A stretch of DNA of 34,346 nucleotides from Bacteroidota bacterium (lineage in GTDB: Bacteria > Bacteroidota > Rhodothermia > Rhodothermales > Bin80), in the NCBI GenBank assembly GCA_026709065.1, contig JAPOTS010000086.1, forward strand, positions 1 to 34,346. Direction: 5' to 3'. Shown here one piece after another: positions 2,775 to 33,570 of the stretch. Below the pieces are notes generated by a model. That model saw only the letters and a list, made by a program, of their open reading frames with translations, was not told the DNA's origin and made no database searches. Numbering within the stretch: position 1 is the stretch's first letter; the number at the start of each line of letters is the position of its first letter. The position numbers and the translations under genes are program-made.

Positions 2775-3215
2775 AGAGAGTATTCATCCCAAGAGCTTCA
2801 AGGAACTTTTTTGCTAAACACGGAAGTGTGCATAAAGAATGGAGTAACATGAGAATATAAGTATTCAGACTACTATACTAAGAGTGTACCCATCATCTAC
2901 ACCATTGCGTTGTGTACTCCATAGAAAATCTCCGTCCAGAAACGGGAAATTTTCTTCGAAACTCCATAGTTTATAGTATTTCTGGATGGGCACTCATTAT
3001 AATTATGCTTCTAAGACTGCAATAAATAATTGATTTCTGGCAACATAGGCAAGTTGTTGAGAATCGTGAGATCACCTCACCAATTACGGCAAGAAAATTT
3101 AGTCACACTTTTGTACTCTAATAAGATAGATGAAAATCAACTACATATCATAGCATGATCAAATTTCACTTCAAGACATTGATAATCTTAATTCTTGATG
3201 TGATGCGTCACAGGG
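2775..3215. other. Intergenic region holding nested inverted repeats
   Basis: No gene is supported in these 441 bases. A short imperfect palindromic structure (2882-2995, listed separately) is the only organised signal seen. Confidence 0.5.
2882..2995. repeat. Nested inverted repeat, about 114 bp
   Basis: The outer arms are GAGTGTACCCATC at 2882-2894 and GATGGGCACTC at 2985-2995, inverted with a two-base gap. Inside lies an imperfect hairpin: AGAAAATCTCCG at 2923-2934 against CGGGAAATTTTCT at 2943-2955, loop 8 bases. The 9-base direct repeat ACTCCATAG brackets the hairpin at 2916-2924 and 2961-2969. It has no coding content and could be a REP/MITE-like miniature element or a remnant. No second copy was noticed in the window. 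Confidence 0.4.
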
Positions 3216-3692
3216 TTATGACTTAGATTGGCAGAGGTCTCTTCTTCTAAGCAATTTCTTATGCCCTGTGGAAAAATCTTTTCGTCCATCATTGGTAGTG
3301 TATATTTTACCTTGTGGATTGTTAATTAAATCTCTGTTTTTGAAATCCCTCTGTAAGTTCTTATCGTTGGAATACAAAAGGCGTGCACCACTGACTTGTG
3401 CTAACGAAATAATGTGATAATCATTGGAGATGCATGCGGATGCCCTTAAAAGATATTCCTCCCGTTCATCAACTTGATTATTATCAATGAACATAATTTT
3501 CCCAGAATTTACTGCATTCAGAGCCCATTTCTGAAATCTTGAAACTTTCTCTAATTCATCCGAGAGTTTACCACCAACAACTAAACGTACATTGGGATTA
3601 TTTTCAATCCACTCAAGGAATTTCTGTCCAGCCTCTGGAGGACGCGTTCCAAATACTTCGGTGACAACATTTACATCTATGATTGCACACAT
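3216..3692 (-). CDS. PIN-domain nuclease, partner of the upstream ATPase
   Basis: The protein has 158 residues from the ATG at 3692, which lies two bases after the stop of the ATPase gene, so the two are translationally coupled. A GTG at 3704 is an alternative start giving a 10-base overlap. The fold pattern is that of a PIN domain: first acid Asp6 in AIIDVNV, Glu46 in LSDELEK, Asp91 in NDYHIISLA, Asp110 in YSNDKNL. The spacing fits the metal-binding acids of VapC-type RNases. The C-terminal 45 residues are basic (GHKKLLRRRD) and may bind nucleic acid. PIN proteins cleave RNA, or more rarely DNA. Here there is no VapB-like antitoxin; the ATPase probably controls the nuclease. I infer a defence or abortive-infection role from the pairing. 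The exact target is unknown. Confidence 0.75.
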   Translation of the reverse strand: MCAIIDVNVVTEVFGTRPPEAGQKFLEWIENNPNVRLVVGGKLSDELEKVSRFQKWALNAVNSGKIMFIDNNQVDEREEYLLRASACISNDYHIISLAQVSGARLLYSNDKNLQRDFKNRDLINNPQGKIYTTNDGRKDFSTGHKKLLRRRDLCQSKS

Positions 3693-3694
3693 TA

Positions 3695-5017
3695 CTATCC
3701 CCACAAAGATCTCCTAGTTTCTTCCATAAAAAATTTGCGATAACTAACTGGAGCATTAAAAATATTTCCAAGATGATCTAGACGGATAGAATGAATTTGA
3801 ACACTTAGGTCATTTCTTTCAAAGAATAAGATAGATACATCCTCGGGCTTAAGATCTGTTTTCCCATCACGAACATCCATACGAACTCGATCAAGTAAAT
3901 GATCGCTGTGAGTTTCAACGATTAACTGTCGGCCTTGACCAGAAATTTTGCATAGCAAGCTTCCCAAAGCGGCCTGTGCACTTGGATGAAGGTGTACCTC
4001 TGGCTGTTGGAGTAATGCTATTCTATCAGATTCTGGAAGTAATAATTCTGTTAAGATGGGTAATACTTGACTCACGCCATATCCTACATCAATTAAATTC
4101 TGTTTTATGCCCTTTCGTTTACTGCCATACTTTCTAATTTGTATTTCAAATGGAGATCCTTGCGATTTTCCGAGGCGATTGACATCAATTTCGTCAAAAA
4201 TTCCTGCACTTGAACCGAACTGCTCTAACTTATCTTTGAAGTTAGTCCATGTCTTGTCTCCGACGAATGCTAAATCAGCCAAAATCATTGGACTATTATC
4301 TCCTTCTGGGTTAGATATCAAACCGTCTGGGCTGTAGGTACGTTGAGGCTGAGAGCGAACAGGAGCACTAGCAAAGGGTCTTTCTTTGTCATGAAATAAC
4401 TCCAATAATCTAAAATTCGCAATCAATTCTGAATCTGAAGGTGAGAAGTCTGGAGAGCCTTCAATAGGAGTGAGACCTGAGTTTTTATTGATATATTCAG
4501 GGAAAAATAGCTCTGGAATGGTAGTGGGTAGGAGTCGTCTTGATGTTAACAATGACATGACAGTACCCCGAGAATCTGTCATCTGAGATGTTTCCCAACT
4601 TCCTTTAGGAGTGGTAACATGAATTGATGATTTACGTTGACCATCATGGAATTCTTTTAGCCATACACCATTATCTCCAAGGCATGTTTTTATGGGTACG
4701 GGAGCCGTATTTTGTTTGCCAAATTCAAATTCAGCATCTAAACCATGACCTAAATGAATTTTCACCTCAAAAGTAGAAGATTGAGGAGCCCGTCCATTCT
4801 GTCGATATGCAATCTGTTCAAAGGTTCCAATATCAAAAGGTGCCTCTTTAAAGTTTGGGATACGATGACCATATATACAATCCCACAATGCTCTTATGAT
4901 AGCCAAAAAAGATGTCTTTCCGGTACTGTTATCACCCACCAGCAATGTCAAAGGCGCAAGCCGAGATACCTGCTTTTCATGAAAGCAACGGTAATCTCTC
5001 AAGGTAATCTCTTTCAT
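3695..5017 (-). CDS. AAA/ABC-type ATPase of the RecF/SMC/OLD-like family (AAA_21/AAA_15)
   Basis: The 440-residue protein has a Walker A, GDNSTGKTS, at residues 28-36, directly after the N-terminal strand and the YRCF motif common to RecF/OLD-like ATPases. Towards the C-terminus are an ABC-type signature (YGVSQVLP, near 315), a Walker B with catalytic glutamate (QQPEVHLHP, Glu340) and the switch histidine in ETHSDH (His370). The middle has no coiled-coil long enough for a true SMC. There is no TOPRIM domain as in full OLD nucleases, so cleavage would come from the PIN protein encoded immediately downstream. Similar single-domain ATPases act as sensors or regulators in two-gene defence modules such as PARIS and Septu; the partner here is of a different type. 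It is the first gene of the pair, and its promoter should lie in 5018-5100. Confidence 0.85.
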   Translation of the reverse strand: MKEITLRDYRCFHEKQVSRLAPLTLLVGDNSTGKTSFLAIIRALWDCIYGHRIPNFKEAPFDIGTFEQIAYRQNGRAPQSSTFEVKIHLGHGLDAEFEFGKQNTAPVPIKTCLGDNGVWLKEFHDGQRKSSIHVTTPKGSWETSQMTDSRGTVMSLLTSRRLLPTTIPELFFPEYINKNSGLTPIEGSPDFSPSDSELIANFRLLELFHDKERPFASAPVRSQPQRTYSPDGLISNPEGDNSPMILADLAFVGDKTWTNFKDKLEQFGSSAGIFDEIDVNRLGKSQGSPFEIQIRKYGSKRKGIKQNLIDVGYGVSQVLPILTELLLPESDRIALLQQPEVHLHPSAQAALGSLLCKISGQGRQLIVETHSDHLLDRVRMDVRDGKTDLKPEDVSILFFERNDLSVQIHSIRLDHLGNIFNAPVSYRKFFMEETRRSLWG

Positions 5018-5815
5018 TGTATGGAGTAATTTACCTCAATAATATATTTAGCCATGAATATACATTTTAATCTATTTGGTGGAATCCTAATCCTACTACC
5101 GTTCAAAGACCATACATCCCGAAACTCAAATTGAAATATAAACGATTATTAATGACAAATCAAATACTCAAGGGACTGACAATCGTTAGTACCTGAAATA
5201 CAATTGTGTACAGTATAGAAGATACTGACTGGAAAGACATTTTACCAATAATCATTGAATCAGTTTGAAGGGGTGACATATTGTAGAAACAATAGCCCGC
5301 ATAAAATACTGCTGTAATTTGTTCAAGTGAAGCAATAGGATTGAATGTTATTTTCTAATTCAAACTACTCCAACTGCTTTAGTCTTCTACCGGATTCTCT
5401 TTATCAAAGTGCACATTAATTTACCCAGAAATCATTGCACATTGCTTTTCAATTACAATACCACAGGGTTTCACAATAGAATTCTCATCTAACGCTAAAC
5501 CCCCTGATGTGTAAAGATCCGAACCTTTGAATAAAGAACAGTTTGGTATCTGAGACTATAAGATTCATGATTAACTCAATTAGCAATTCACTATACAATC
5601 ATAATGATTGCGTTCGGATAACACATCATTGTACATATGATTGTTTCGTGATAACCATCAAATCCCAATGGTCGCGGGTATAATGAATGGTACAGAATAA
5701 TCGTCAAAAAAATGTATCAAATGATGAAAGATGAGTCATCATACACGCGAGAAATTGCGTGGGTTGACTGTGAAGTTGCAGTAGTTCTAATAAAAGTCCA
5801 TGATTTTATGTAAAT
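5018..5815. other. Long divergent intergenic region, no intact gene
   Basis: These 798 bases separate the divergent ATPase and spondin-protein genes and should contain both promoters. Minus-strand reading gives two short protein-like stretches, about 5421-5522 and 5160-5342, in different frames and ended by stops. They may be debris of a lost gene, but I could not identify a family. Confidence 0.4.
5764..5793 (+). promoter_or_regulatory. Candidate promoter of the spondin/Calx-beta-like gene
   Basis: TTGACT (5764-5769) is followed after 18 bases by TAATAA (5788-5793), a reasonable sigma70-like pair, 25 bases before the ATG at 5819. The 13-mer GTTGACTGTGAAG covering the -35 box is repeated exactly at 10459-10471, upstream of argH. 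Confidence 0.35.
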
Positions 5816-5818
5816 TTG

Positions 5819-8800
5819 ATGAAAATCTCTAATATGATGATGCAGAAATTCTTAGGATTATCTTTGATCGCGGTGGTTTTATGGACTCATAGTGCACTGG
5901 GGCAGGGGACGGCTACATATAAGTTGACATTCACATCAACATGGACATCTAGCACCCATCCTACAAATTATCCACCAGGCCCTCATTTTTCTCCGCTAAT
6001 CGGTGCAACGCACAATTCAAGCGTTACGTTTTGGCAAACGGGAGCTCAAGCGACTAATGGCATAGAAGTTATGGCAGAGACGGGTGGCACTAATAGATTC
6101 AGAACTGAAATCAATACGGCTCGGAGCGCCTCCAATGCAGATGTCATCATCAGTGGTTCAGGATTAGGCGCACCCCCAACATCTACATCCCTCAACTTCA
6201 ATATAAAACCATCGTTCCCTCTGGTGACTGTCGTATCTATGTTAGCTCCAAGCCCTGATTGGTTTGTAGGGGTTTCAGGATTAAGCTTGTTGAATTCCGA
6301 TAACACCTGGAAAAGTAGTGAGGAAGTGATGCTTTTTGTTTATGATGCAGGCACTGACAGCGGTCCTAACTATACATCCAGCAATGCTGATGTAACTCCC
6401 CATGAAAATATTGAAAGGATTGCCGGATCCCCATTTTTGGTCAGTGGCAATGTGAAACCCGTTGGCACCTTCCTATTTGAACTAAAAAATAGCAAGACTA
6501 TCACAGTTCAAAGTTCTATAACCGTCACAGAAGGTGGCTCTTCATCATTGAATGTGAGGTTAAACGCTGCACCAACAGCAAATGCCACAGTTACATTTTC
6601 AGACTTCATTAATCCAGACCTGTCTCGTAATCCTACCTCATTGGTTTTCACAACAACGGACTACAATACTCCTAAGACGGTCACTATTACAGCCGCTTCA
6701 GATGATGACGCGATAGATGAGGCTGCAGAGACCATTACGTTGACGGCCAATGGAGGTGGCTATAGTAGTGTTACACGGGACGTAACGGTGACCGTCATCG
6801 ATATTGACGAAATTGCCTTGGATGTCAGTCCCACTGCCCTTAACATTGCAGAGGGTTCATCGCTTTCCTACAATGTCAGACTTAAATCAGAACCCGCTGG
6901 GACTGTAACCGTCGCTATCACTGGAGCATCTAACGAAATTACAGCGTCTCCTGCAAGCCTTACATTCGCAACCACGAACTGGAATGTCAATCAGCCGGTA
7001 AACGTAACTGCTAATGTAGATGATAATGCTATTGATGAGCAAATCACACTTACCAATACCGCCTCTGGCGGTGGATATGGATCAGCGCCAGCCGTTGGGG
7101 TGACCGTGACGGCCAATGACAATGAACAGGTCGAATTGGTCGTTACTCCCCTTACCTTAAATGTGGATGAAGGAAGCAGTGAGACTTATACAGTTAAGCT
7201 TGGATCGGAGCCACAGGGAACAGTCACAGTTGAGGTGTCGGGAGCTTCTGGAATGATTTCTGTTGATACAGATCTCAATACTCAAGGACTGCAATCTTCA
7301 TTGTCATTTACCACTTCAGATTGGGACGATCTACAAACTGTGACTGTGAGTGCTGATCAAGATGATAATGCCATTGATGAGCAGGTCACACTTACCAACA
7401 CTGCATCTGGGGGTGGATATGCATCGGCTGCATCGGTAGGAGTAACCGTCAATGCGAATGACGATGAAGAGGCTAGATTAGTCCTTGCGCCTGTGACATT
7501 AAATATTGATGAAGGGGCATCCAATAGCTACACTGTGACGCTTAATTCTGAGCCATCAGCTTCGGTAACTGTGACTATAAGTAGCAATTCACAAAACGTC
7601 ACCATAGATACTGATAGCGGCACCTCTGGGAATCAGAATACCCTCACATTCACAACATCTACTTGGAATAATCCCCAGACTGTGACAGTCAGTGCAGGGC
7701 ATGATGATGACGGTGAAAATGAAGAAGTGACTCTTAATCATGATGCAACAGGAGGTAATTTTGAGTCGGTGTCAAGTTCACTTGCTGTGACCATTATGGA
7801 TGATGATGAGGCAGAACTTCTAATTAATCCCACATCAATCATAATTCTTGAAGGCGCAAGCGAGACCTATACGATAGCACTTGCAACTGAGCCTCAAGGG
7901 ACTGTCACGGTAGATGTTGCAGGCGGTTCTGGAGTGATAACCGTTGATACTGATTCCAATACTCAAGGACTGCAATCCTCTTTAACATTTACCACTTCCA
8001 CTTGGAATACTGCCCAATCTATTACGGTGACTGCACTGGAAGATAATGATGAGTCTAATCATGATATCACAGTGACCAATACTGCATCTGGCGCAGACTA
8101 TGCCTCGGTTGAAGCCGATCTCAGCATTACGGTTATGGACAATGATGAGCCTGGACTGATGGTCAATCCAGTATCGTTAACTGTCAACGAGGGTGGGGTT
8201 GCTACGTATACAATACAACTCACGACTCTGCCATCGGGGACTGTGACTGTTGAGATAACTGGGGAATCAGATGGTATCACTTTGGATTCTGATGCCAACA
8301 CGAACGGCGATCAATCTACATTGATCTTTACCACCTCAAATTGGAATAGTCCACAAACGGTCACCGTCAGTGCGGGTCAAGATAATGATTCGATTAATGA
8401 TGTAGTCACATTAACTCATTCCGCATCTGGTGCGAACTATCAATCGGTTGAGACGGTGGCGATAGAGATTACCGTCGCGGATGACGATCTTTCGGGGGCA
8501 GCGATCACGATTGCATCAACCACAGTGAGTGTTGACGAAGGATCCAATGCAACCTTTGATGTGACCCTCGCAGTTCCCCCTACGGGAGAGGTTGAGGTGG
8601 GGATTTCTGATGTTTCAATTCCGAGTTTAAATCGATCTCCAGCGAGTCTTACATTTTCTTCGTCAAATTATAATCAACCTCAGACGGTGACAATCACAGC
8701 GAGCGAAGATCCCGATAACAATAATGAATCTGACTCCATCACATTGAATCCAAGCGGTGGGGGATATGATAATGCATCTTCATTACAAGTGACGATTACT

Positions 8801-10423
8801 GTCCAAGATGATGATGCACCCCAGATCCTGTTGAGCGATGAAAGCATTGAGATAGGCGAGGGAGCAACCGGTAATTTTAACGTTTCTCTTGTCACAGTCC
8901 CTACATCGGATGTAGAGGTTACGGTTTCAGAATTTACAAATCCTGAGTTAACGCGAACGCCCGCAACGCTAACATTTACAACATTAAACTATAATCAACC
9001 TAAGACGATTTCCGTGTCTGCCGATCATGATGTTAATATGGTCAATGAAATGGAAACACTCACTTTGACAAGTACAGGGGGTGGCTATACTGGAGTTTCG
9101 GCAAGATTGTCAGTTACGACCTTAGATGATGATATTGGTAAACCAACGGTCACTCTTACGGTTGATTCTAATCCTGTTACTGAAGGGGAATCTGCTTCGC
9201 TCACACTGACACTCTCGGCTCCAATTACATCTGCTGTTATGATTCCGATGATTATCACTAATGATTCTGCCGAGCAGTCCGATTACGAACCTGTTACCAT
9301 TATCAGTATTGATGCGAATAAGATGACGGGCGTAGCCACATTGATGACTAATGAGGATGATGACTATGATGATGAAGAACTTACCATCAAATTGGGAGAT
9401 CTACCTGACCAAGTGCTTCCAGGCACTACGACATCCATTGTCTTAACGATTGAGGATAATGATATTGAAGAGGTATCAGTGATATTTACACAGACGATCA
9501 TTGAATCTCAAATAGACTTGTACATAGACGACTCACTCTATGTAGATAACTTTAAGTTTCAATCTTCCACGAGGCAGGACATTGAGATCGGAACCATTAA
9601 GATCGATGTGATTGATAGCGATGCCACAGATAATTCAAGTCCGCTATACACAGAAGAGATGGAGCTCATAGCCGATCAACAGTATCATATCATCTTCCAA
9701 GGAAAAGACACTGATGATATCTCAACGGTTGAGGTGCAGGACAATAACGGTGATGACTCGATTGCTCAGGACTCAGTCTATGTTCTTGTGATCCATAGTG
9801 CGCCAGATTTAGGTCCGATCACGGTTCAGATTCTTGACCCAGAATCCAACAATGATATTATCCAAGTCCTGAGTGACAACTTGAACTATGGTGATGCGAG
9901 TTCCCAAGTTTTACTCGCTCAAAAACAGTATAATTTTGCAATACTTGGAGGATCAAATAAGCAGGATTCACCATTAGAGGTCTTTTCCGCTGACTGGTCA
10001 CAGTCTTCACAGCCTAAAGGGTTTTTGATTCTCTCTGGTAGTGGGCGTTCTATCAGTGAGGGACTCAATATGATGGGGGTGTGGCAGGATGGAGGTGTTT
10101 ATTTTCCTACCAAAGTCACATCAGCTGAGGATCTTCCCTTGAATCCTATTGATTTTGCGGTGGGTAATTACCCGACTCCATTTATAGATCAAACAAATTT
10201 GTGGATGACTTTGCCCGATGCATCCAACGTACACATTCAAATCGTTGATATTTTAGGGAGAATGACCTATGAAAATATTGGATTTGATGCCCAAGGCGGT
10301 CAGCGCCATCTATACGAGGTCAATACGGCCTCTTGGCCATCAGGAGTCTATTTCTACAGAGTCGTCGTGACCTCTCATGATGGGCAAACCATTGGTACTG
10401 GAAAAATGATCCGAGTCAAATAG
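5819..10423 (+). CDS. Giant secreted spondin-N / Calx-beta-like repeat protein with T9SS sorting domain
   Basis: The protein has 1534 residues from the ATG at 5819; a TTG at 5816 directly precedes it. The signal peptide covers about 1-27 and ends in SALGQ. Residues 30-220 match the spondin_N fold, with the hallmark strings HFSPLIGATHN, AETGG, APSPDWFVGV and YDAGTDSGPN, whose acidic residues bind calcium in F-spondin. Nine tandem units of about 100 residues (230-1215) resemble Calx-beta domains; each opens near a Glu-Gly and closes with an acidic Asp-rich loop (DDDAIDE, DNDSIND and similar). Two DUF4397-like beta domains follow at about 1219-1305 and 1320-1405. The C-terminal 85 residues, from YPTPF through LGR and GVYFYRV to the end, are a type A T9SS sorting domain. 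It should be exported by Sec, cross the outer membrane by the Por system and act as a calcium-stiffened surface adhesin. No catalytic site was seen. Confidence 0.92.
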   Translation: MKISNMMMQKFLGLSLIAVVLWTHSALGQGTATYKLTFTSTWTSSTHPTNYPPGPHFSPLIGATHNSSVTFWQTGAQATNGIEVMAETGGTNRFRTEINTARSASNADVIISGSGLGAPPTSTSLNFNIKPSFPLVTVVSMLAPSPDWFVGVSGLSLLNSDNTWKSSEEVMLFVYDAGTDSGPNYTSSNADVTPHENIERIAGSPFLVSGNVKPVGTFLFELKNSKTITVQSSITVTEGGSSSLNVRLNAAPTANATVTFSDFINPDLSRNPTSLVFTTTDYNTPKTVTITAASDDDAIDEAAETITLTANGGGYSSVTRDVTVTVIDIDEIALDVSPTALNIAEGSSLSYNVRLKSEPAGTVTVAITGASNEITASPASLTFATTNWNVNQPVNVTANVDDNAIDEQITLTNTASGGGYGSAPAVGVTVTANDNEQVELVVTPLTLNVDEGSSETYTVKLGSEPQGTVTVEVSGASGMISVDTDLNTQGLQSSLSFTTSDWDDLQTVTVSADQDDNAIDEQVTLTNTASGGGYASAASVGVTVNANDDEEARLVLAPVTLNIDEGASNSYTVTLNSEPSASVTVTISSNSQNVTIDTDSGTSGNQNTLTFTTSTWNNPQTVTVSAGHDDDGENEEVTLNHDATGGNFESVSSSLAVTIMDDDEAELLINPTSIIILEGASETYTIALATEPQGTVTVDVAGGSGVITVDTDSNTQGLQSSLTFTTSTWNTAQSITVTALEDNDESNHDITVTNTASGADYASVEADLSITVMDNDEPGLMVNPVSLTVNEGGVATYTIQLTTLPSGTVTVEITGESDGITLDSDANTNGDQSTLIFTTSNWNSPQTVTVSAGQDNDSINDVVTLTHSASGANYQSVETVAIEITVADDDLSGAAITIASTTVSVDEGSNATFDVTLAVPPTGEVEVGISDVSIPSLNRSPASLTFSSSNYNQPQTVTITASEDPDNNNESDSITLNPSGGGYDNASSLQVTITVQDDDAPQILLSDESIEIGEGATGNFNVSLVTVPTSDVEVTVSEFTNPELTRTPATLTFTTLNYNQPKTISVSADHDVNMVNEMETLTLTSTGGGYTGVSARLSVTTLDDDIGKPTVTLTVDSNPVTEGESASLTLTLSAPITSAVMIPMIITNDSAEQSDYEPVTIISIDANKMTGVATLMTNEDDDYDDEELTIKLGDLPDQVLPGTTTSIVLTIEDNDIEEVSVIFTQTIIESQIDLYIDDSLYVDNFKFQSSTRQDIEIGTIKIDVIDSDATDNSSPLYTEEMELIADQQYHIIFQGKDTDDISTVEVQDNNGDDSIAQDSVYVLVIHSAPDLGPITVQILDPESNNDIIQVLSDNLNYGDASSQVLLAQKQYNFAILGGSNKQDSPLEVFSADWSQSSQPKGFLILSGSGRSISEGLNMMGVWQDGGVYFPTKVTSAEDLPLNPIDFAVGNYPTPFIDQTNLWMTLPDASNVHIQIVDILGRMTYENIGFDAQGGQRHLYEVNTASWPSGVYFYRVVVTSHDGQTIGTGKMIRVK
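6510..9465 (+). repeat. Nine tandem Calx-beta-like coding repeats
   Basis: Units of roughly 290-330 bases begin near 6520, 6845, 7160, 7500, 7845, 8180, 8530, 8850 and 9175. Units 3 to 6 also share an Asp-Thr-Asp...Asn-Thr insertion and a TFTTS(T/D)W strand. Parts of units 3 and 5 are close at the DNA level; ATACTCAAGGACTGCAATC occurs in both, around 7278 and 7958. This points to recent duplication or recombination. The unit number may vary between strains. Confidence 0.85.
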
Positions 10424-20194: not shown

Positions 20195-21244
20195 TTATGT
20201 ATGATTCTCTTGTTGCAAATGAGCGATAGAATGAGGAGTATCCTCACAGTCTATAGCCATCCAGCACAGTAACTTGATGTCGCCTGTTTCGATAGGAGGC
20301 AGAGGATCAGGCGGTTCAATGGCTTCAAGACCAGTCTCCAGTATATAGTTTACAAGCTTACTGGACAATTCTTGTAATTTTACGGGGCGACTGATGTCTT
20401 CTTTGGACTTGAATATTTTACGAAGATCAATCTGCTCTCGACGAGGCCAAGGAGTTTCAACAATATCAAGTGCCTTTTTACAATTTGCTGAGGAGATATT
20501 ACCAGGAGTATGTGAGCGGATAAATTCGGCCACTTCGCGATTGATTCGGTCAAGTTTGGGTTGGAAGCTTGCTGGATCAGTTTGCTTTGTCCAGTCTTCT
20601 AGAATATGCTCCTGAGCGATTTCCCAAAAATCATACACATTTTCATGCACTTTATTGGGGCAAGAAGTGGGAGTTTCTTCGTCACATTCAATCAGGCGTA
20701 AGCATGTCCCGATTTCATCAATGATTTTTTGAGGATCACTATGTGGTTCCCACTCAGGTGATGCATTGACAAAGCGTAAGTAGGTTCGTTCAAAATCTGA
20801 ATTGTCTCCAACAACGGCGCAGAAAAATATACCGCGTTGTTTTCCTTTAATCATGCCTGAACCGATTTTCCACGGCAGTGAAGTAAATTGATTAGGGTAT
20901 TCGCTCAGGGCTTTGCGCAGAGTATGACGATATTCTTCGCCCGTTTGGGTTGCTGCCACAGTACCTCCATGTTCAAAGAGTGAAGGATCTTCTTTGAGCA
21001 ATTCGTCAAAGAGGCTTTTATCATCTCCAGAAATATCATTTAGGAACGCTGTAGTTAAAATATGGTTATCTATTCCTTTAAGAAACTGTTTTTGTTGGAC
21101 AATCATTTTATTGATTGTTTTCCTAAATGCATAGCAGGAGGACTCAAATCTTTTCAATAGCCCTGAACGCAAGAGCCCCATCATAGCTTGTATATGTCCA
21201 TTTTCTTCTGGATCAGCGGGAACTTTTCGATAAGTATTAGGCAT
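20195..21244 (-). pseudogene. C-terminal fragment of a SNF2-family helicase (lobe 2 deleted)
   Basis: An open frame of 349 codons carries the linker and C-terminal domain of a large SNF2/HepA-like helicase. Residues 24-55 (MGLLRSGLLKRFESSCYAF and following) are the conserved segment between the two RecA lobes in this family. Residues from about 100 onward match its C-terminal region: WEIAQEHILEDW, TKQTDPASFQP and ETPWPRREQ. What is missing is the whole Helicase_C lobe with motifs V and VI, which should lie between residues about 75 and 95; a deletion has joined the flanks in frame. Upstream, the gene continues in other frames (see 21245-21863). The ATG at 21244 is a chance internal Met. The product cannot be an active helicase. 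Confidence 0.82.
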
Positions 21245-21863
21245 GTAGCGACAAAAGAGAATGTTTTTATCTACCTGGAGTCTAACGCATCTTCAAGTTG
21301 ATCAAAAAAGCCAGGTAATTAGGATTCCAATTCATAGCGGACTGTAATTGCATTAGGTTTTGGAAAGATGATGGGTTTTGGTGTTCCATCTGATATCTTG
21401 ATGGTATCTGATGAATAATGTTTTTTACGAACTCGCGAGTTCGTTTGATTGTCTTCGCATCAATAATTGGATAGAGTACATCAGGGCTAAGATCCGTAGG
21501 ATTTGTTCGCATAGCTTCTAAATAGCGTTGCTTGATGGAAAGAATTCCTTGATCCGCAAGATGTGCACTTGTCGGAATGAAGTAGCGAACAATGTAGTAC
21601 AAATCCCATAATGAATTATTGACAGTTATTGGTGTCAATAATAGGGGATCTCGTTTTGGGACAAATAGTAGACGACTCAATACTACGGCTCGGGTTGGGA
21701 TGTTAGGAGTAGGGTAATTGTGTGCATCATCAACGATGATGAGTTGGTATTCTTCTAAATCACTTTGTAGATGATGTCTTGTTGCATTTGGACGTTGTTT
21801 TTCTTTCAGTGGAATATTCCCCGCTAGTTGTTCAAGGGAGATACATTCAATAGCCCGTGACAT
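21245..21863 (-). pseudogene. Lobe-1 fragment of the same SNF2 helicase, with frameshifts and stops
   Basis: A 193-codon open frame (21863 to 21282) includes a Walker B-like LIIVDDAHNY (DDAH instead of DEAH), TPITVNNSLWDLYYI where TATPVNN is normal, and DLSPDVLYPIID. It ends in nonsense after a run of six A (21421-21426 as T6). In the shifted frame the conserved sequence resumes, starting CAT at 21420: HYSSDTIKISDGTPKPIIF, then PKPNAITVRYELES. TAA (21319-21321) and TAG (21271-21273) then interrupt it. A second single-base loss near 21255-21265 restores the frame of the downstream fragment (CRYMPNTYRK). The N-terminal region with Walker A is absent before 21863. In total: one 5' truncation, two frameshifts, two nonsense codons, and altered motifs II and III. 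Confidence 0.85.
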
Positions 21864-21913
21864 AGAAAAGTCGCTTTAAAATGAAGTCTTACGAATTCTA
21901 ACTGGCAGAGTTA

Positions 21914-23491
21914 TCACTTTTTTTCCTCACGCCTAAGCCACTCGGACTTGTTGATTGGAACCCTAGATATTCTCTGCCCAATTGAATGGGCGATTGACTG
22001 AGCGACCTCCGGCTTTAACTCTCCAATCCATTGATATTTTCCGTTAGTACGACTGCTAAATAAATATCTCTGATCACTTAATTCACTAGCTACATACTTG
22101 CTGTCAGATTTGGGTTTAAATTCTATGATCCGCCAGTCTTTGGGGTGCATGGATATCTTCATGATTTCAAATTCATTTTCTGTAACCGGCACAACTAACT
22201 TTAATGCTTTTCCCTTTTTTTCGGACCGAAGATTGAGAAAAAGAAATGGAGTAGGATTTTCGAGTCTTACAGTATCACATTTAGGGGTGATGCATAGAAA
22301 GAATTCCTCATTATCAATACATTTAATGACTGTCCCTGTTGATAACTGCTTAGGTGATTTCGTAAATACCTGCCTAAAGCACATCAATGATGCAAGGCGG
22401 AGATCAACCTCATTATTGCTACTCTGACCCTTTGAAAATCCATCAGAAAGAAGATTATAGTTTTTTGCTTTCATTGGGGCGTTTTGATTTTCAATTCCAT
22501 ATTCTAATATTTTAAGAACGCCCTTTTTATAAATCTCAGGATTCTGAAAAATCACCTGATCATCTTCAAATCTTTCATCACACCAACGTTTAATTGCTTC
22601 CATTCCAGCTGGACTTGGTTGATCAGTAATGACATCGTTTATGATTCCATAGAGCTCACTGGTTATTTGTTCTATAATATGCTGCTCAGAATCTTGTGGT
22701 TGAGGCAAACATGCCCGGTGGGCCAAAAATGCTGGATCAAGATCTGACCCAAAACACTTAAGTATGCGGTAAACATTTTCCCTTACCGCACTTAATGCAG
22801 TCAACGCTAGGCCCGATATAAGTCCTCCTACCTTGTTTGCAAAGTGCTTGATAAGATGATCTACCAGTTTCTGCTCATCTACTATAAGATTCTTGTGTGT
22901 ACTGACAGTTCCTAGCTTTTGGTAAACTACAATCCGATGGGCACCGAGATCTATTCCATAATGATCATTCCCTGAAAAATCGATCTGATCTCCTTCATTG
23001 AAAACAGCTTTAATCTGATTTAGGATATTTTCTGGGTCCGTTTCTCCAGTGTAAATTGCAATCAAACGAAGTTGATTTTTGAGATGATTATTCAGGATTT
23101 TTTCAATAAGTGGTAAGACAGTCTGATTCGTTTGAGTATTGAGTTGCCAGTCAAGAACTAATATATCCGCACGTGCAGCAGTCCTAACAAGGTTTTCGTA
23201 ATCAGATTGTTCATCCTGAGGAGAAATCGTGCCACAAATCATACCTTGACGGGCAAATGATTGCGTGATCCGATCTACATCTAGCGTGCGCAAACTGGTT
23301 TTCTCAGATGATGTCCCTTGTTTTCTTGATAAGGTATCACGAGTAGGGTTTTGCAGATTGCCGTGGGCAGATGAATCTGAAGGAATTGTAAGTTCATCAT
23401 CTATGACAAGTGCTGTCAAGAGAAACCTCTTTGCGATCTCTTCAGAATGCTGTGAAAATGTATCAGATGTCATGAAAGTCCTAGTGGTCAT
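21914..23491 (-). CDS. Receiver-domain protein with large unknown C-terminal region
   Basis: The protein has 525 residues from the ATG at 23491, which overlaps the stop of the kinase gene by 11 bases; ATGs at 23494 and 23473 are alternatives. Residues 25-165 fit a divergent receiver domain with an insertion: acidic pocket VIDDE at 29-33, phospho-acceptor Asp114 in ADILVLDWQL, switch Thr148 in IAIYTGE. The roughly 35-residue Ser/Thr-rich insert at 38-72 is unusual. The rest, about 190-525, has no domain I can name. It contains helical segments to about 320, then a beta-rich part (KLVVPVTENEFEI, DWRIIEFKP, YLFSSRTNGKYQWIGEL) and a basic tail. I see no output DNA-binding helix-turn-helix. Its position directly after a histidine-kinase-like protein makes it the likely phospho-partner, linking the sensor to the effector. 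Confidence 0.75.
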   Translation of the reverse strand: MTTRTFMTSDTFSQHSEEIAKRFLLTALVIDDELTIPSDSSAHGNLQNPTRDTLSRKQGTSSEKTSLRTLDVDRITQSFARQGMICGTISPQDEQSDYENLVRTAARADILVLDWQLNTQTNQTVLPLIEKILNNHLKNQLRLIAIYTGETDPENILNQIKAVFNEGDQIDFSGNDHYGIDLGAHRIVVYQKLGTVSTHKNLIVDEQKLVDHLIKHFANKVGGLISGLALTALSAVRENVYRILKCFGSDLDPAFLAHRACLPQPQDSEQHIIEQITSELYGIINDVITDQPSPAGMEAIKRWCDERFEDDQVIFQNPEIYKKGVLKILEYGIENQNAPMKAKNYNLLSDGFSKGQSSNNEVDLRLASLMCFRQVFTKSPKQLSTGTVIKCIDNEEFFLCITPKCDTVRLENPTPFLFLNLRSEKKGKALKLVVPVTENEFEIMKISMHPKDWRIIEFKPKSDSKYVASELSDQRYLFSSRTNGKYQWIGELKPEVAQSIAHSIGQRISRVPINKSEWLRREEKK

Positions 23492-26426
23492 CATGGATGG
23501 GTGAGATGTAAAACGTTGTATTCCAATCCCTTTGTTGATCTGCAAGAATAAGTCTATATCCTATCTGACGCAATGTTTCCCGAGCAATGTGTAATCCCAT
23601 CCCCCGCCCTTCGGGCTTTTTAGTAAACCCTATCTTAAAAATATCCTCACGATCCCTAACATGAATTCCCGGGCCAGAGTCCGCAACATAAAATGATCCG
23701 TGAGATTCATCCAGTTGAATTTGGCGTTCAACGCGTTCGTTTTGACCAGAAAGCCAGTAGATTGAATTATCTACAAGGTTTACAAAGACAGGATACACTG
23801 ACGATGGATAGCTCTTCAGGGTAGATTTTGCAAAGGAATCAGTCTGAATCAATTCAACATGATGCCGGGATAGACGCTGCCCAAAAAGATTCGTAAGGAA
23901 TCGAAAAATTTCCCAACCATGAATCGTGACTTCCTTACGATATAATCTCCTCTGTAGAGGGGTGAAGAGACTGAGATAACCATCAAGATGATCAAAACCA
24001 TTGCGTATATTCTGAAAAAGAGGCATTAATTCGCTGTTGACATTTGCCCATTCCTTTAGATCTCGGAGTCCAATTCGGATAGCCCTGATTGCGGCACCAA
24101 ATTCATGGCTTATGATTTCAATTGCCATTCCTAATTGAATAAGCTGCAAATCGCTGACAGACTGTTCCTTCAGTGAAATATTGCTCTCCTCAATAGCAGC
24201 TATCTCGTCAAGCATAGAAGAATCATCGTTGAACTCAATAGCTGAGAGTAGCGCCAGAATGGATTCAAGTTTCTGTCCAGATTGATTCACTACTTCCTGA
24301 ATTACCTGCTCTTGTGAAGAACGAACAGCATATAAGTTTTGGTCATCAAGGCCCTGCAAGTCTTGCCGTGCAAACTCGCTCATGACTTCGCGAAATGTAG
24401 TTTCAATAGCCTCCCTCCATTTTTTCGTCACTCCACGAGCTTCACCAAGAATTCTGTTGGCCTCTCCCATAATTTTCTTGCTTTGAGATCCTGTCTGACG
24501 CTCGCCATAATTCTTCACATCATTTAAGGCAGCTTCTGTACGCTCTCTGAAAGTCAAATGCACTCCGGCATCTGCTATCTCCCGTGAAATAATACTATCA
24601 ACGGAGTCTTGAACATCCTTGATAGATGACAGAATATCCGCATGAGCATCTTGATAAATGTACCAGTCCTTCATTATGGACTTAGATAAACCTATTTGAG
24701 GTTTCGTAACCCTATATTTTGATTCTATATCTCTCAGAGATTTTCGGAGATCTTGCTCAATCTCCTGAATGAGCAAGGCAACTCGCTCTCTATTCTGATC
24801 GCAACATGCCTGCTTTATTCGTTTCTCAGCGTCAATTCCTATTTCCATAATCTCATCTACTGGATCCTTTTGCTCTATTTGCTCAAAAAAATCAGATAGA
24901 TCCTTCTTAAGTTTTTTTCGCTTGACAGAAACCTTTTTGGCTCTGGCTCTCCGATGCAATTCGGCTTTCTCCAGTTCCTGCTTTTGGATGATGAATTTCT
25001 CAGCATGTACCCCTTCTGAGCGGAAAAAATCAGCTGCCACTTGGACTAGAAAATTTTTCAGAATATCTCTTAGATCCCGGTATGCCTTATTTTCACGAAA
25101 GCCTTCACGGCCTGCCTTTTCACTGAGATTTGGATTATTGGAAGAGTCAACCTCAACGATTCCAAACATCTGGCGATATGAAAAATAGTAATATGAAGCA
25201 CTCTTCGTTCGGCGAAGCTCAATTTCCAGCCAATCATAATCCGTATTCCCATAGGGTTGAATTCGAACGCCGTCACGATAGATATATAATCCCCCTAATT
25301 TTCTAGTCTTAGCAAGCATCAGAGCATGATCTGGAAGAGGCAAGGTCGAATGTCTGGCTGCCCCCTCAATGGCGGCAAATCGTATCTGAAATGGACCACA
25401 ATCGGTAGATTTCCCTTTGCCACCGCTCCAATTGACAATATGTTGTTCAACGATTTCGCCATAAATAGATATGCTCCCCTTAAACTGACCCCACTTGTCA
25501 AACTCTCCCCAAATCTGGTGATCCGCATTTTGATAATCATCATCGGTAAAAAATTCGTTTTCATTGATGAAATTGTGGTGGCTTCCATCAACACTATGAA
25601 CTCTGAAGGAAGTTTGAATAATTGATTGATTCTCAGCCCCAAATGAAGGAGTAGTAAATCCTAAGAGTGCCTTCTGTAAGGGAGCAATCTCATCAGACTT
25701 GGGATTTCCATCAATATCATATTCCAAATTAGAGTTTGCAGGAAAGAGGTAAAAATGAGTACCATGGCCTTGTTCCAGAAGGGTTGGCTCACCTAAATGG
25801 CTCGCTAAACTCAGAGGATCTACAACAAATTGGTTAAGATCTTCCTGAATCTGCTTACGTTTCTCCTCATCTATACGTTCAAGAATCTGAGCGTTCATCT
25901 CATGGAAGTAACTAACCATTTCCGCAATATCATTGCCGTTAGGCATTCTGCCACCTGGGAATGTTTGAAGCTGAATCAGGACATCTTGAAGATTGAGCTC
26001 TGGGCACTCAAAGAATCGCCAGTTCAAGAATGCGGCGGTTAGATCGGATAAAATACCATTACGATTTGCACGTGTGAGAACCAGCACCTGAGGAGCAATG
26101 GTTGCGATTGCTAAGCGACCGATTCCCTTTTCTCCAAGTATGGGCCTGTTGCCTCGTGTCAACTCACGAGGACGCTTTTTTCTTTGAATACTTGCCTCTG
26201 TTGCTATGGTGAGCCAATTATCCCTGAACTCATTCAATTTCATCCCGATTCCATTGTCTCGCATCACGAATAATCCGTCGCTTCGATAATAATCAACCTC
26301 TACACGGGTTGCGTCTGCATCATGTGCATTCTTGAATAGCTCACTTATTGCCGTAGGGTTCCCAGCAATCTGTTGTCTACCCAACATATCCAGTGTTCTG
26401 GCCCGAGCCTCAAAACTGACGTCCAT
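23481..26426 (-). CDS. Double GHKL ATPase: MORC/Hsp90-like N-terminus, histidine-kinase-like C-terminus
   Basis: The protein has 981 residues. The N-terminal GHKL ATPase (HATPase_c_3 type) shows the N box SELFKNAHDAD (Glu29, Asn33), DNGIGM at 57-62 and GEKGIGRLA at 98-106, like MutL, Hsp90 and MORC proteins. A middle region follows, then a Lys/Glu-rich coiled-coil stretch (about 470-740). The C-terminal part has an H-box-like IEIISHEFGAAIRAIR with His774 and a second GHKL domain: N box NLVDNSIYWL at about 884-893, DSGPGI near 917, GRGMGLHI near 945. All ATP-lid motifs of both domains are intact. Such N-terminal ATPases clamp DNA in MutL/MORC families; the C-terminus suggests autophosphorylation and transfer to the receiver protein encoded next. 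It starts two bases after the methyltransferase stop. I infer a DNA-state sensor that signals. Confidence 0.85.
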   Translation of the reverse strand: MDVSFEARARTLDMLGRQQIAGNPTAISELFKNAHDADATRVEVDYYRSDGLFVMRDNGIGMKLNEFRDNWLTIATEASIQRKKRPRELTRGNRPILGEKGIGRLAIATIAPQVLVLTRANRNGILSDLTAAFLNWRFFECPELNLQDVLIQLQTFPGGRMPNGNDIAEMVSYFHEMNAQILERIDEEKRKQIQEDLNQFVVDPLSLASHLGEPTLLEQGHGTHFYLFPANSNLEYDIDGNPKSDEIAPLQKALLGFTTPSFGAENQSIIQTSFRVHSVDGSHHNFINENEFFTDDDYQNADHQIWGEFDKWGQFKGSISIYGEIVEQHIVNWSGGKGKSTDCGPFQIRFAAIEGAARHSTLPLPDHALMLAKTRKLGGLYIYRDGVRIQPYGNTDYDWLEIELRRTKSASYYYFSYRQMFGIVEVDSSNNPNLSEKAGREGFRENKAYRDLRDILKNFLVQVAADFFRSEGVHAEKFIIQKQELEKAELHRRARAKKVSVKRKKLKKDLSDFFEQIEQKDPVDEIMEIGIDAEKRIKQACCDQNRERVALLIQEIEQDLRKSLRDIESKYRVTKPQIGLSKSIMKDWYIYQDAHADILSSIKDVQDSVDSIISREIADAGVHLTFRERTEAALNDVKNYGERQTGSQSKKIMGEANRILGEARGVTKKWREAIETTFREVMSEFARQDLQGLDDQNLYAVRSSQEQVIQEVVNQSGQKLESILALLSAIEFNDDSSMLDEIAAIEESNISLKEQSVSDLQLIQLGMAIEIISHEFGAAIRAIRIGLRDLKEWANVNSELMPLFQNIRNGFDHLDGYLSLFTPLQRRLYRKEVTIHGWEIFRFLTNLFGQRLSRHHVELIQTDSFAKSTLKSYPSSVYPVFVNLVDNSIYWLSGQNERVERQIQLDESHGSFYVADSGPGIHVRDREDIFKIGFTKKPEGRGMGLHIARETLRQIGYRLILADQQRDWNTTFYISPIHDDH

Positions 26427-26428
26427 CT

Positions 26429-27526
26429 TTACACTTGTTTTCTTATCTCGTTTAGATGTTTTACAATTTGATGACCAATGATGGTTGCTAATTTAACCGG
26501 AACTGCATTACCAATTTGGCGGGCCATTGAGTGTAAATTACCAGTAAAAACAAAATCCTTCGGAAATGTCTGAAGGCTGGCAGCCTCACGAACACTAATT
26601 GCACGATCCTGTTCAGGATGTCCAAAACGACCATTAGAATAACTGATACATCGGGTAGTTAGCCCTGGAGCCGGACGATCCCATGACATGCGCCCATATA
26701 CATCACTATATCCTACCTTATTTAGATGACATTGAAGTCTGAGATGAGGAGGCCAATCCAAGTTACCTCCACCTTCTGGGGTTGCCTTTATGCGCTTCAA
26801 GTTGAGCTCAGAAAGACCAGCAGAACGATGATTTGGAACTTCATCATGTGTTTCACCAGCTGAAAGCTCTGGTAGCCTCCCGATCCAATCTCTAACTGTA
26901 GAAAATTCAGGGTTTGGTGTTCCTGGACCATGAGTTTGGGGAGGAAGTTTTATTCTGCCATGCCGACTTGCAATTAACAGGAATCTTTGACGGCTTTGTG
27001 GTACCCCATACTTCTTAAGATAAACCGATGCATAATCAATTTGATATCCAGCACTCTCAAGCCCATCAATAAATGTATTCAACGGATTCATGCTAACAGA
27101 TACCTTCTGTATTCCAGGAACATTCTCCAAGAAAACAATGTCAGGATTGCACCCCTGAATCAAGCGTAATAATTCTAAGATCAAAGGGATACGTTCATCT
27201 TTATCTGATTGTGGGCGAATGGTATTCTGTTTAGTGAAAGGTTGACATGGAGCACATCCACAAAATAGGATTGGGTTGGGACGTGCTTGATTCACAAGTA
27301 ATTGAGTATCTTTCGTCTCCACTCGTCGAATGTCTTCAGAGAGGAAGGTTGCATTAGGAAAATTTTTCGTGAATGTACGTTTCGCATCCATATCTTTATC
27401 AAGTGCAAAGACGATTTCCATTCCAGCATTCTGAAAGCCTTGACTGGCTCCACCACAACCAGAAAAGAAGTCAAATACCTTGACGAATAGACTTGGATCA
27501 AATGAAGAACATCCACTATGAGCCAT
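26429..27526 (-). CDS. DNA (cytosine-5)-methyltransferase
   Basis: The protein has 365 residues and transfers methyl from S-adenosylmethionine to C5 of cytosine in a specific DNA site. The conserved motifs are all present and in order: I FDFFSGCGGASQGF (17-31), IV APCQPF with catalytic Cys94, VI ENV at 134-136, VIII QSRQR at 177-181, and X QIGNAVPVKL near the C-terminus. The target recognition region between VIII and IX (about 190-290) is short to medium, so the site may be short; it cannot be read from sequence. It leads an operon with the GHKL protein (2-base gap) and receiver protein. No restriction endonuclease gene is adjacent, so it likely marks self DNA for the downstream system. A palindrome just upstream may be an operator. 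Confidence 0.93.
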   Translation of the reverse strand: MAHSGCSSFDPSLFVKVFDFFSGCGGASQGFQNAGMEIVFALDKDMDAKRTFTKNFPNATFLSEDIRRVETKDTQLLVNQARPNPILFCGCAPCQPFTKQNTIRPQSDKDERIPLILELLRLIQGCNPDIVFLENVPGIQKVSVSMNPLNTFIDGLESAGYQIDYASVYLKKYGVPQSRQRFLLIASRHGRIKLPPQTHGPGTPNPEFSTVRDWIGRLPELSAGETHDEVPNHRSAGLSELNLKRIKATPEGGGNLDWPPHLRLQCHLNKVGYSDVYGRMSWDRPAPGLTTRCISYSNGRFGHPEQDRAISVREAASLQTFPKDFVFTGNLHSMARQIGNAVPVKLATIIGHQIVKHLNEIRKQV

Positions 27527-27904: not shown

Positions 27905-29449
27905 TTAAATCTTAAAATCTTCCTTTATAGCATGCATTGTTGCACTTGCTGAGAGTACGACACCGGGCACCCCAGCACCTGGGTGAGTGCCTGCACCGAC
28001 CAAATATAAGCCCTCTATATCCTCGCTACGATTGTGGGGGCGAAACCACGCGGTCTGAGTGATTCGTGGTTCAATACCAAAAGCATTCCCTGCTGTAGAA
28101 TTATACTCCGATTCAAATTCATTCGGAGTAAAGACATGATGAACCTCAATGGATGCTCGTAAATCTTCTAACCCCCATTTTTCCAATGCATCAATCACGC
28201 GATTGGTCATCAATTCTGTTGTAGCCCCCCAGTCTGTATCAGAATATAAGTTTGGAACCGGAACTAAGATGTAGATACTTTCACCCTCAGGGGGAGCCAT
28301 TTCTGGTTCTGTTCGACTTGGCACATGAAGATACATACTAAAATCATCCGCCAATATTTTACGATCAAAAATATCCTGAACTAATCCCTTGTAGCGAGGC
28401 CCTAGTATAATCGTATGGTGCGAAAGCTGAGGATATTTCTTTTTGACACCAAAATATAACAGGAAGCAACTCATGGATTGCTGGATTCGCTTTAAGCGAG
28501 AATCTGTCCAACGCTGACGTTTTTCCTTTGCAAGTAAGTGTCCATAGGTATGTCCAACATCAGCATTGCTGACCACAATGTCTGCGGCAATTCTAGATTT
28601 AACATTTTCGGTTCTATCAATAACTTGAATGCCCGTAGCTCTGGGACGAGACGAAGATCTGTTTTCAACGTCAATCCGTAACGCCGTAGTATTGAGGCGA
28701 ATCTCACCGCCGATATCTTGAAACAGTTGGCCCAAACCCCGAACAAGGCTGTACATACCCCCTTTAGCATACCACACCCCGCCTTCCTTTTCAAGGAACG
28801 GAATCATCAGAAAGATTGATGGAGCACGAAATGGGTTACCACCCAAAAAGAGGGGATGAAATGAATAAAGAAATTGGTGTCGCCAGTTACGAAAGTATTG
28901 CCGAACAAATTGGGACACAGGCATCCATGCCCCAAGATTGAGAACTCGTGGTACAAACCCAATCATCTTGCCTAATGAATCAAAGGGGCGTGCTCCCAAG
29001 CCTTCAGTGATCACGGCTTCATAAATCGGTTGAAGTTTTGTAAAGAATTGCTCAAGGCGTTCTGCATCACGTTGATCAAATTGTGCCATTGAAGCTTTCA
29101 TCTGCGCAAGATCTGAGCGATAGTCTAAATAAGTCCCATCATGAAACCAAACCCGATAAAATGGATCCAGTGGCACAAGATTTACATAGTCTTCTAAGCG
29201 TTTTCCTGCACAATGAAAAATATCTTCTAACAGGGGAGGAGCAGTAATTAAACTCGGCCCAGTATCAAACGTATAGCCAGAGTCAATAATTTGACCAGCC
29301 CTGCCACCGAGTTGATTACGTTGCTCAATGAGTGTAGTTGAGATGCCGGAAGCTTGTAACCGTACCGCGGCAGTTAGTCCTCCAAAACCGCTACCAATGA
29401 CTACAGCACGATGCTGAGATTCAGGGGAATGCTTTGAATTATGAGGCAC
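27905..29449 (-). CDS. crtI: Phytoene desaturase
   Basis: The 514-residue protein desaturates phytoene stepwise towards lycopene and is a membrane-associated FAD enzyme. It shows the N-terminal dinucleotide motif VIGSGFGGLTAAVRL, the GRAGQ and YTFDTGPSL strings that follow, and the C-terminal bacterial-type signature LVGAGTHPGAGVPGVVLSA. The length is normal. The start is a GTG at 29449 overlapping the stop of the CrtE-CrtB fusion by 11 bases. It is the third gene of the cruF to crtI operon. Close paralogues (CrtD, a 3,4-desaturase) share these motifs; position directly after phytoene synthase favours CrtI. Confidence 0.94.
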   Translation of the reverse strand: MPHNSKHSPESQHRAVVIGSGFGGLTAAVRLQASGISTTLIEQRNQLGGRAGQIIDSGYTFDTGPSLITAPPLLEDIFHCAGKRLEDYVNLVPLDPFYRVWFHDGTYLDYRSDLAQMKASMAQFDQRDAERLEQFFTKLQPIYEAVITEGLGARPFDSLGKMIGFVPRVLNLGAWMPVSQFVRQYFRNWRHQFLYSFHPLFLGGNPFRAPSIFLMIPFLEKEGGVWYAKGGMYSLVRGLGQLFQDIGGEIRLNTTALRIDVENRSSSRPRATGIQVIDRTENVKSRIAADIVVSNADVGHTYGHLLAKEKRQRWTDSRLKRIQQSMSCFLLYFGVKKKYPQLSHHTIILGPRYKGLVQDIFDRKILADDFSMYLHVPSRTEPEMAPPEGESIYILVPVPNLYSDTDWGATTELMTNRVIDALEKWGLEDLRASIEVHHVFTPNEFESEYNSTAGNAFGIEPRITQTAWFRPHNRSEDIEGLYLVGAGTHPGAGVPGVVLSASATMHAIKEDFKI

Positions 29450-31346: not shown

Positions 31347-31362
31347 GGAATCTATTGAGTAA

Positions 31363-32172
31363 TCACAACTGTATTTTGTTTGATAACACAATTCTAAGCC
31401 CACCAATCACTCCAAGTGTCAGAATGACCGCCAGCCAATAGCCTGCCAGTAAAGTCATTCCCAATGACAGTACAATCACAGTGAAGTAGTAAAATTCCAT
31501 GATAGATGGTGGAATTTTATCCGCCATTTTTCCTGTACCTGAATAATGAAAACCAACCATGATCAGTATACCCGTTCCGAACCAGCCAAGTAAATTCACC
31601 AGAGGCATACCGTAATATGGACCTTGATTATACCACACCCAGTAGTTAGTTAGTTCACTCATTGCGGGATCCAATGTTAAATCCCATGCGGTTAATAAAA
31701 ATGAGGCAATGATCCACTGTATGACGGGCACTGTAGATATATGTCTGGCTAACACATAGGCGGGAAACGCCATCATAAACCAGCTAATCGGAATTAATAC
31801 TGGAACCAGATTCAGGACTTTATAGCCCATCAGTGAGGTATATTCATACCCACTAAATGGGAATCCTGTCTTAGTGCCAAGAAGTTCCATCCCCAAAGAG
31901 ATTACTGATGCAATAATTAATGGAGGGAGCCATTTCAATTTGACTCTTGGAATAAGTAGAAGCAAAAGTACTACGGCTGCAAGGATCACATGTCCTCTTG
32001 AAAAAATAATGAATGCAAACCCATAAAATCCAGCTGCATCTGGGTACTCAGCTAAGAGGTTAGGATTAAGCCCAAAAGTGCCAAACCCAAGAAGAACAGT
32101 TAATGTGAATAGCCAAAGTAGAGCTAGGCTTAACCAATCTAAGGTGGTGAAAGCTGAACGAGGCTTAGACAT
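31363..32172 (-). CDS. cruF: Carotenoid 1',2'-hydratase (CruF family)
   Basis: The 269-residue integral membrane protein has about seven hydrophobic helices and belongs to the CruF/DUF422 family. GMELLGTKTGFPFSGYEYTS, AWDLTLDPAMS and the WYNQGPYYGMPLVNLLGWFGTG pattern are typical. CruF adds water across the 1',2' double bond of carotenoid end groups, giving 1'-hydroxy derivatives used for myxol- or salinixanthin-like pigments. It is the first gene of the operon; a TATTAT box lies about 15-20 bases before its ATG on the minus strand, but I could not match a -35 box with confidence. Together with CrtI and the CrtE-CrtB fusion it points to an acyclic or monocyclic hydroxylated C40 carotenoid. 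Confidence 0.9.
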   Translation of the reverse strand: MSKPRSAFTTLDWLSLALLWLFTLTVLLGFGTFGLNPNLLAEYPDAAGFYGFAFIIFSRGHVILAAVVLLLLLIPRVKLKWLPPLIIASVISLGMELLGTKTGFPFSGYEYTSLMGYKVLNLVPVLIPISWFMMAFPAYVLARHISTVPVIQWIIASFLLTAWDLTLDPAMSELTNYWVWYNQGPYYGMPLVNLLGWFGTGILIMVGFHYSGTGKMADKIPPSIMEFYYFTVIVLSLGMTLLAGYWLAVILTLGVIGGLRIVLSNKIQL

Positions 32173-33565: not shown

Positions 33566-33570
33566 AATTC

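Follow-up and report, generated by a model that had tools for sequence, protein, structure and literature searches.

The effector of Septu (PtuB) is an HNH nuclease, that of Gabija is a TOPRIM domain fused within GajA, and that of PARIS is a TOPRIM protein (AriB) separate from the ABC ATPase sensor AriA. According to the available sections of the sources, AriA detects triggers and then frees a tRNase (PMC12409363), GajA is listed as inhibited by ATP and as not hydrolysing it (PMC10568477), and degenerate ABC sites are marked by lack of the catalytic glutamate (PMC7544095).

Pairs of an OLD-type ATPase and a PIN protein are already described bioinformatically, as HEC-03 in PADLOC and in a 2026 BREX survey (PMC12839542, available in part); a first-pass annotation of the locus studied here had taken such a pairing to be possibly new, which it is not. 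HEC stands for Hma-embedded candidate and HEC-03 for candidate 3, as given in the accessible part of PMC12988326. In HEC-03 an OLD-type ATPase (HEC-03B) is followed by a PIN protein of about 160–180 aa (HEC-03A), the same order as in our pair. The available text of the BREX survey gives a joint count of 594 taxa for OLD-ABC ATPases whose partners are HNH, PD-(D/E)XK or PIN nucleases. Its units of OLD-ABC ATPase and PIN endoRNase in BREX and BR loci have the same domain pairing as ours and likewise associate with DUF1156 methylase and DUF499; they are reported there as a domain pairing. The literature searched, with the HEC preprint lying outside it, yielded no experimental study of an OLD-type ATPase paired with PIN.

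The gene pair

The window, meaning the whole stretch of DNA analysed, is 34 346 nt long and is contig C91 of genome G000 (98% complete). The pair occupies its minus strand:

3695..5017 (−), OLD/RecF-type ABC ATPase, 440 aa (ORF; Pfam AAA_15/AAA_21; homologous fused model; Walker B alignment)
3693..3694 (−), 2-nt gap from ATPase stop to PIN start (ORF positions)
3216..3692 (−), PIN-domain nuclease, 158 aa (ORF; Pfam PIN; AlphaFold2; VapC match; conservation)

The ORF coordinates bear out the 2-nt gap of the first-pass annotation, which suggests translational coupling. The PIN gene begins at a conserved ATG at 3692; a mechanical GTG start at 3704 would give a 10-nt overlap with the ATPase gene. 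Pfam matches are AAA_15 (2.1e-20) and AAA_21 (4.2e-19) for the ATPase and PIN (6.5e-05) for its partner. The absence of an antitoxin, also noted at first pass, holds as well: apart from the pair itself, ORFs around 2775–5815 are all ≤76 aa except for a 91-aa ORF antisense to the ATPase gene, and among them we found neither an antitoxin-like gene beside the pair nor a VapB-type gene beside the PIN gene. The PIN protein resembles VapC/PIN toxins in its fold and four acids but has an ABC ATPase as partner where they have VapB. No tRNAs or Rfam families were found in the window, and the sole repeat found flanking the pair is one short imperfect direct repeat.

Conservation of the pair

Searching 84,980 species genomes with an ATPase alignment returned 568 stretches with 487 relatives, and the best 80 of these relatives provide a set of 79 loci from many phyla. 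A PIN gene lies directly downstream on the same strand in 74/79, a recurrence well above chance. Among the remaining five, the contig ends within about 215 nt of the ATPase gene at L026, L063 and L072, the PIN gene downstream at L078 is reduced to its two ends, and no PIN was found beside the ATPase at L086. In 65/74 loci the two genes are separated by −1 to 8 nt, and in 72/74 by −1 to 25 nt. No other family of at least 70 aa recurs in more than 12 of the 79 loci, so there is no sign of a third conserved gene of that size.

Sequences were aligned for 67 pairs (66 loci and the window), leaving out PINs judged by eye to be broken or cut (L029, L034, L039, L062, L065, L085, L087 and L094). The pairwise distances among ATPases correlate with those among PINs (r 0.59, against a maximum of 0.32 in 1000 shuffles), and dN/dS is 0.11–0.35 in 23 of 24 gene comparisons from 12 locus pairs, the PIN comparison of L066 and L069 giving no usable dS. 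Both genes are under purifying selection. They are not strictly interdependent, since several ATPases persist beside broken or deleted PINs and one orphan PIN is known (L178, 1501–1941, with all four acids and no ATPase detected within 1.5 kb).

Between L066 (771–2639) and L069 (915–2776), ATPase identity is 90% and PIN identity 55%, a contrast in the sequences that suggests effector exchange.

The Gln-Gln Walker B of the ATPase

The AAA_15/AAA_21 domain, Walker A (with K34), a signature-like VGYGVSQ and the switch His370 are present in the window ATPase and conserved in the aligned pairs. The first-pass annotation had listed these motifs correctly but called Walker B complete as well. It reads LLQQPE, with both acids replaced by Gln (Q337, Q338), as alignment with IIEEPE of TsOLD and LIDEPE of wild-type AriA shows; one deposited AriA, 8v46, has LIDQPE in place of the wild-type motif. 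The acidic pair (D/E-E) of OLD/RecF-type ABC ATPases is absent, and because Gln-Gln stands where TsOLD has EE and AriA DE, the protein counts, by its motifs, as a degenerate variant of that class. Walker B is Gln-Gln in 67/67 aligned pairs.

The ATPase fold was taken from the homologous pair of L038, predicted as one fused chain by reading through the native stop codon (AlphaFold2, 37 rows, mean pLDDT 83.9, pTM 0.69). Its ATPase part resembles retron PtuA, Rad50 and SMC heads, and also OLD and GajA; the predicted fold thus places chains of Septu/retron Ec78 PtuAB (PtuA) and Gabija (GajA) among the best matches. The fused model gave no usable ATPase–PIN docking and no interface error, and such a model cannot show a complex.

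One of the two patterns used in the locus search was QQPE[VI]HLH, so that the Gln-Gln counts in the 79-locus set are partly selected; they were checked against loci found by PIN instead and against viral contigs with a QQ, EQ or EE motif. Outside the 79, and excluding the window, PIN searches found 17 loci. The QQPE motif is present in 12, one of them a broken copy (C6 of G000). A broken copy on C132 reads QQPD, a decayed remnant on C103 reads EQ, and L016, L178 and L194 have no ATPase motif within the stretch. LxQQPE is therefore found in 12 of the 14 with a recognisable motif, the remaining two being decayed copies.

The viral counts cover all contigs encoding the motif in which the ATPase ORF reaches 300 aa and enough sequence follows it to hold a further gene (84 of 109 EQ and 24 of 30 EE stretches were used). 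PIN follows 4/4 QQ-type, 6/84 EQ-type and 0/24 EE-type ATPases (Fisher p 3e-5, QQ against pooled EQ and EE; 0.001 if L198, whose PIN is detected only by its own-family HMM, is scored as a miss). The HMMs derive from QQ-type and HEC-03 PINs and from L198's own family, and detection leans on these families; the window-family HMM alone finds PIN after 3/4 QQ viral ATPases. All QQ viral ATPases have PIN-like partners, including one type too divergent for a Pfam match. Among the six EQ ATPases followed by PIN, four have HEC-03-type PINs and two have the window type.

The PIN protein

The acids D6, E46, D91 and D110 are all present, as the first-pass annotation stated, and are kept in 66/67 aligned pairs, the exception (L057) lacking the first. 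Pfam PIN is recognised in 56/64 family members. The AlphaFold2 model of the window PIN (64-row alignment) has mean pLDDT 96.0, and its best structural matches are VapC toxins, led by 5x3t_B (Z 9.7, rmsd 2.9, 122 residues) and then VapC20; Foldseek alone gave no match with E < 0.001. With the PIN fold and its four acids, the protein belongs among PIN proteins. Two cysteines are also near-invariant, C2 in 65/67 and C154 in 66/67 pairs, and a C-terminal Cys is common to HEC-03 PINs and window-type PINs.

Comparison with PADLOC systems

HEC-03A was found in 9/299 Pseudomonadota genomes, each time (9/9) adjoining an ATPase of the NsnB/HEC-03B type. Eight HEC-03A proteins are PIN-like with acids D, E, D, D, a label that rests on motifs and weak Pfam matches. 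Their ATPases differ from the window family at Walker B, which is EQ in 8/8 with PIN partners and QQ in ours. The window PIN has no PADLOC match at E 0.1, and so lacks the match to HEC-03A by which the HEC-03 partner is recognised; one of 64 members of its family matches HEC-03A (E 0.034). HMMs of the two PIN families do not detect each other, and their similarity by profile–profile comparison is marginal (probability 39%, E 3e-4).

The window ATPase scores 94.7 bits with HEC-03B, for which no curated cut-off is shown, and higher with NsnB (161.9) and PDC-M55A (116.3). Neither of the higher-scoring systems was accepted. NsnB, the top match, has genes of about 310–400 aa on both sides with no PIN among the matches listed, and a literature search for the names NsnA/B/C returned unrelated uses only. 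The PDC-M55A partner is 297–325 aa and not PIN-like (2/6 loci with the ATPase found by the filter). PARIS shares a separate ABC ATPase sensor and nuclease effector with our pair but differs in having AriB, a TOPRIM protein, where the window has PIN; the fused TOPRIM of GajA differs likewise from a separate PIN.

Genomic context and distribution

In the sister genome G167 the gene order is HmaB (PADLOC E 2.6e-114), ATPase, PIN and HmaC (9e-93), so the window-type pair, like HEC-03, occurs inside an Hma locus. The decayed copy on C103 of G000 also lies between HmaB and HmaC. HmaB upstream (5 of 72 genes scanned) and HmaC downstream (5 of 69) are the commonest immediate-neighbour families, with PDC-S01 (3, upstream) and HEC-01A (3, downstream) also among the PADLOC families listed. 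For 70 control genes drawn from eight of the genomes that carry the loci, the largest PADLOC family had two members; each of the listings covers 25 families, and control families beyond them had at most one. Families that occur in three or more loci and are recognisably of defence type (DUF1156 methylase, DUF499, SNF2-type helicase, type I RM, Eco57I-type methylase, OLD-type ATPase), recur within 8 kb of 21/79 loci, about a quarter, a count without control. Judged by the HmaB and HmaC counts against control genes, defence context around the pair is enriched, yet confined to a minority of loci.

Viral contigs carry the pair too: on L199 it is flanked by the genes for the terminase large subunit and for portal, from which it differs in strand, and on L198 and L201 phage primases are near it. 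Scans by PIN across viral contigs, plasmids and phage records found no relative. PIN is present in 6/10 genomes of the window's genus and 9/16 of its family, with 1–5 matches per genome, some broken; in G000 itself one pair is intact and the copies on C132, C6 and C103 are broken. The sample of its phylum has matches in 4/247 genomes, two outside the genus, and other phylum samples in 7/400, 3/242 and 3/244. At the window's site in G959, esterase and argH are 3.5 kb apart, with other genes and no pair between them. Phyla are partly mixed on the ATPase tree, which requires 25 phylum changes where 14 would be the minimum; mislabelled bins could add to the mixing.

Because of the conservation of the pair, the nearby defence genes, the HmaB/HmaC embedding and the viral terminase/portal position, we regard it as a mobile, defence-like module. 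The coupled ATPase–nuclease logic of PARIS, Septu and Gabija, suggested at first pass, fits a near-obligate pair in accessory, defence-linked and phage-borne contexts. The survey of gene pairs and contexts proposed with it came out favourably for joint conservation and less so for context, as most immediate neighbours across loci, the window's included, are not recognisable defence genes.

Two of the 79 loci bear what we take to be names of sponge symbionts. Four others are Aplysina aerophoba sponge bins by accession (PMC5649159 table), and for 21 we infer a sponge origin from three-letter prefixes that fit the species of PMC8163846; the other 52 are unchecked and the ranking favours the window's relatives, so these figures are no test of habitat restriction. 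Sponge symbiont genomes are reportedly rich in restriction-modification and toxin-antitoxin genes, according to the part of PMC5649159 available.

Proposed mechanism and alternatives

We think it rather probable that the pair is a mobile two-gene defence module in which an ATP-gated ATPase sensor restrains a toxic PIN effector, and its role is probably antiviral. The OLD-type ABC ATPase would be sensor and gate, held in a putative physical complex with PIN: binding ATP, it would close into a stable dimer and keep PIN inactive. Little or no hydrolysis is proposed because both Walker B acids are Gln throughout the family. The toxic effector would be the PIN protein, most likely an RNase on tRNA or rRNA, as for VapC-fold relatives. 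The ATPase–PIN assembly would open on a phage trigger, perhaps an anti-restriction protein or falling nucleotide levels, and the freed RNase would stop translation and phage growth.

Changing Walker B to Gln-Gln is the kind of alteration made in the laboratory to trap ATP on ABC ATPases. In this family the motif suggests a non-hydrolysing ATP-gated switch rather than a motor, although it is no proof of absent hydrolysis, as another residue might serve. By analogy, the best account may be a PARIS/Gabija-like sensor–effector module with a PIN RNase and an ATP-binding, hardly hydrolysing gate. Only tentatively would we go further and see a distinct class of ABC-ATPase immune switch, in which fixed Gln-Gln gates a PIN RNase by ATP binding and release without turnover, spread in sponge symbionts across phyla and also in phages. 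If that were true, QQPE at Walker B would separate PIN-coupled ATPases from most relatives and predict a non-hydrolysing immune switch, and sponge symbionts would have a widespread two-gene defence module.

It is unlikely, in our judgement, that the ATPase is a conventional hydrolysing sensor that tolerates Gln-Gln, the motif being a lineage marker without mechanistic meaning. Such a marker would be common to one family by descent, as Gln-Gln is, and both the EQ motif of HEC-03 ATPases (8/8) and the two EQ viral ATPases with window-type PIN are in keeping with it; yet both Gln are invariant in 67/67 pairs while other positions drift, and the QQ viral ATPases all have PIN-like partners, the divergent type included. 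An addiction module, in which PIN would be a VapC-like toxin with constitutive activity and the ATPase would serve as antitoxin so that the element persists, would explain the VapC fold, the translational coupling, the patchy multi-copy spread and decay in one genome and the many stand-alone loci. We consider it a poor prospect, as the orphan PIN of L178 survives with all four acids and no ATPase detected, the ATPase is far larger than VapB with a conserved nucleotide-binding site, and the HmaB/HmaC embedding and phage moron position fit defence better.

A housekeeping role in RNA processing or repair is very improbable. Purifying selection on both genes and the ordinary genes beside the window pair would suit it, but the pair is missing from four of the 10 genus members and seven of the 16 family genomes and broken in some others, PIN is rare in all four phylum samples, and other genes take the window's site in G959. 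The defence module with an ATP-gated sensor remains our preferred reading.

Other genes in the window

The pair is bordered by an esterase-type gene and by the gene of a secreted repeat protein, neither of them a defence gene. This protein (5816–10423, +; 1535 aa) combines repeats with Spondin_N and a secretion-tail domain, and a distant relative of about 27% identity adjoins the pair copy on C6. Defence-like genes do not begin until 20 kb. At 20195–27526 (−) lie a cytosine-5 DNA methylase, a large histidine-kinase/HSP90-like ATPase protein, a Response_reg_2 protein and two smaller proteins, a group with weak similarity to SNF2/DISARM helicases and possibly a second defence operon. A DUF2290 protein and the C-terminal part of the PADLOC ‘Helicase’ model follow at 32897–34227 (−), cut by the contig end. 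Between them, at 27905–32172 (−), is a carotenoid-type cluster, in which a 655-aa ORF reads by eye as a polyprenyl synthase–phytoene synthase fusion.
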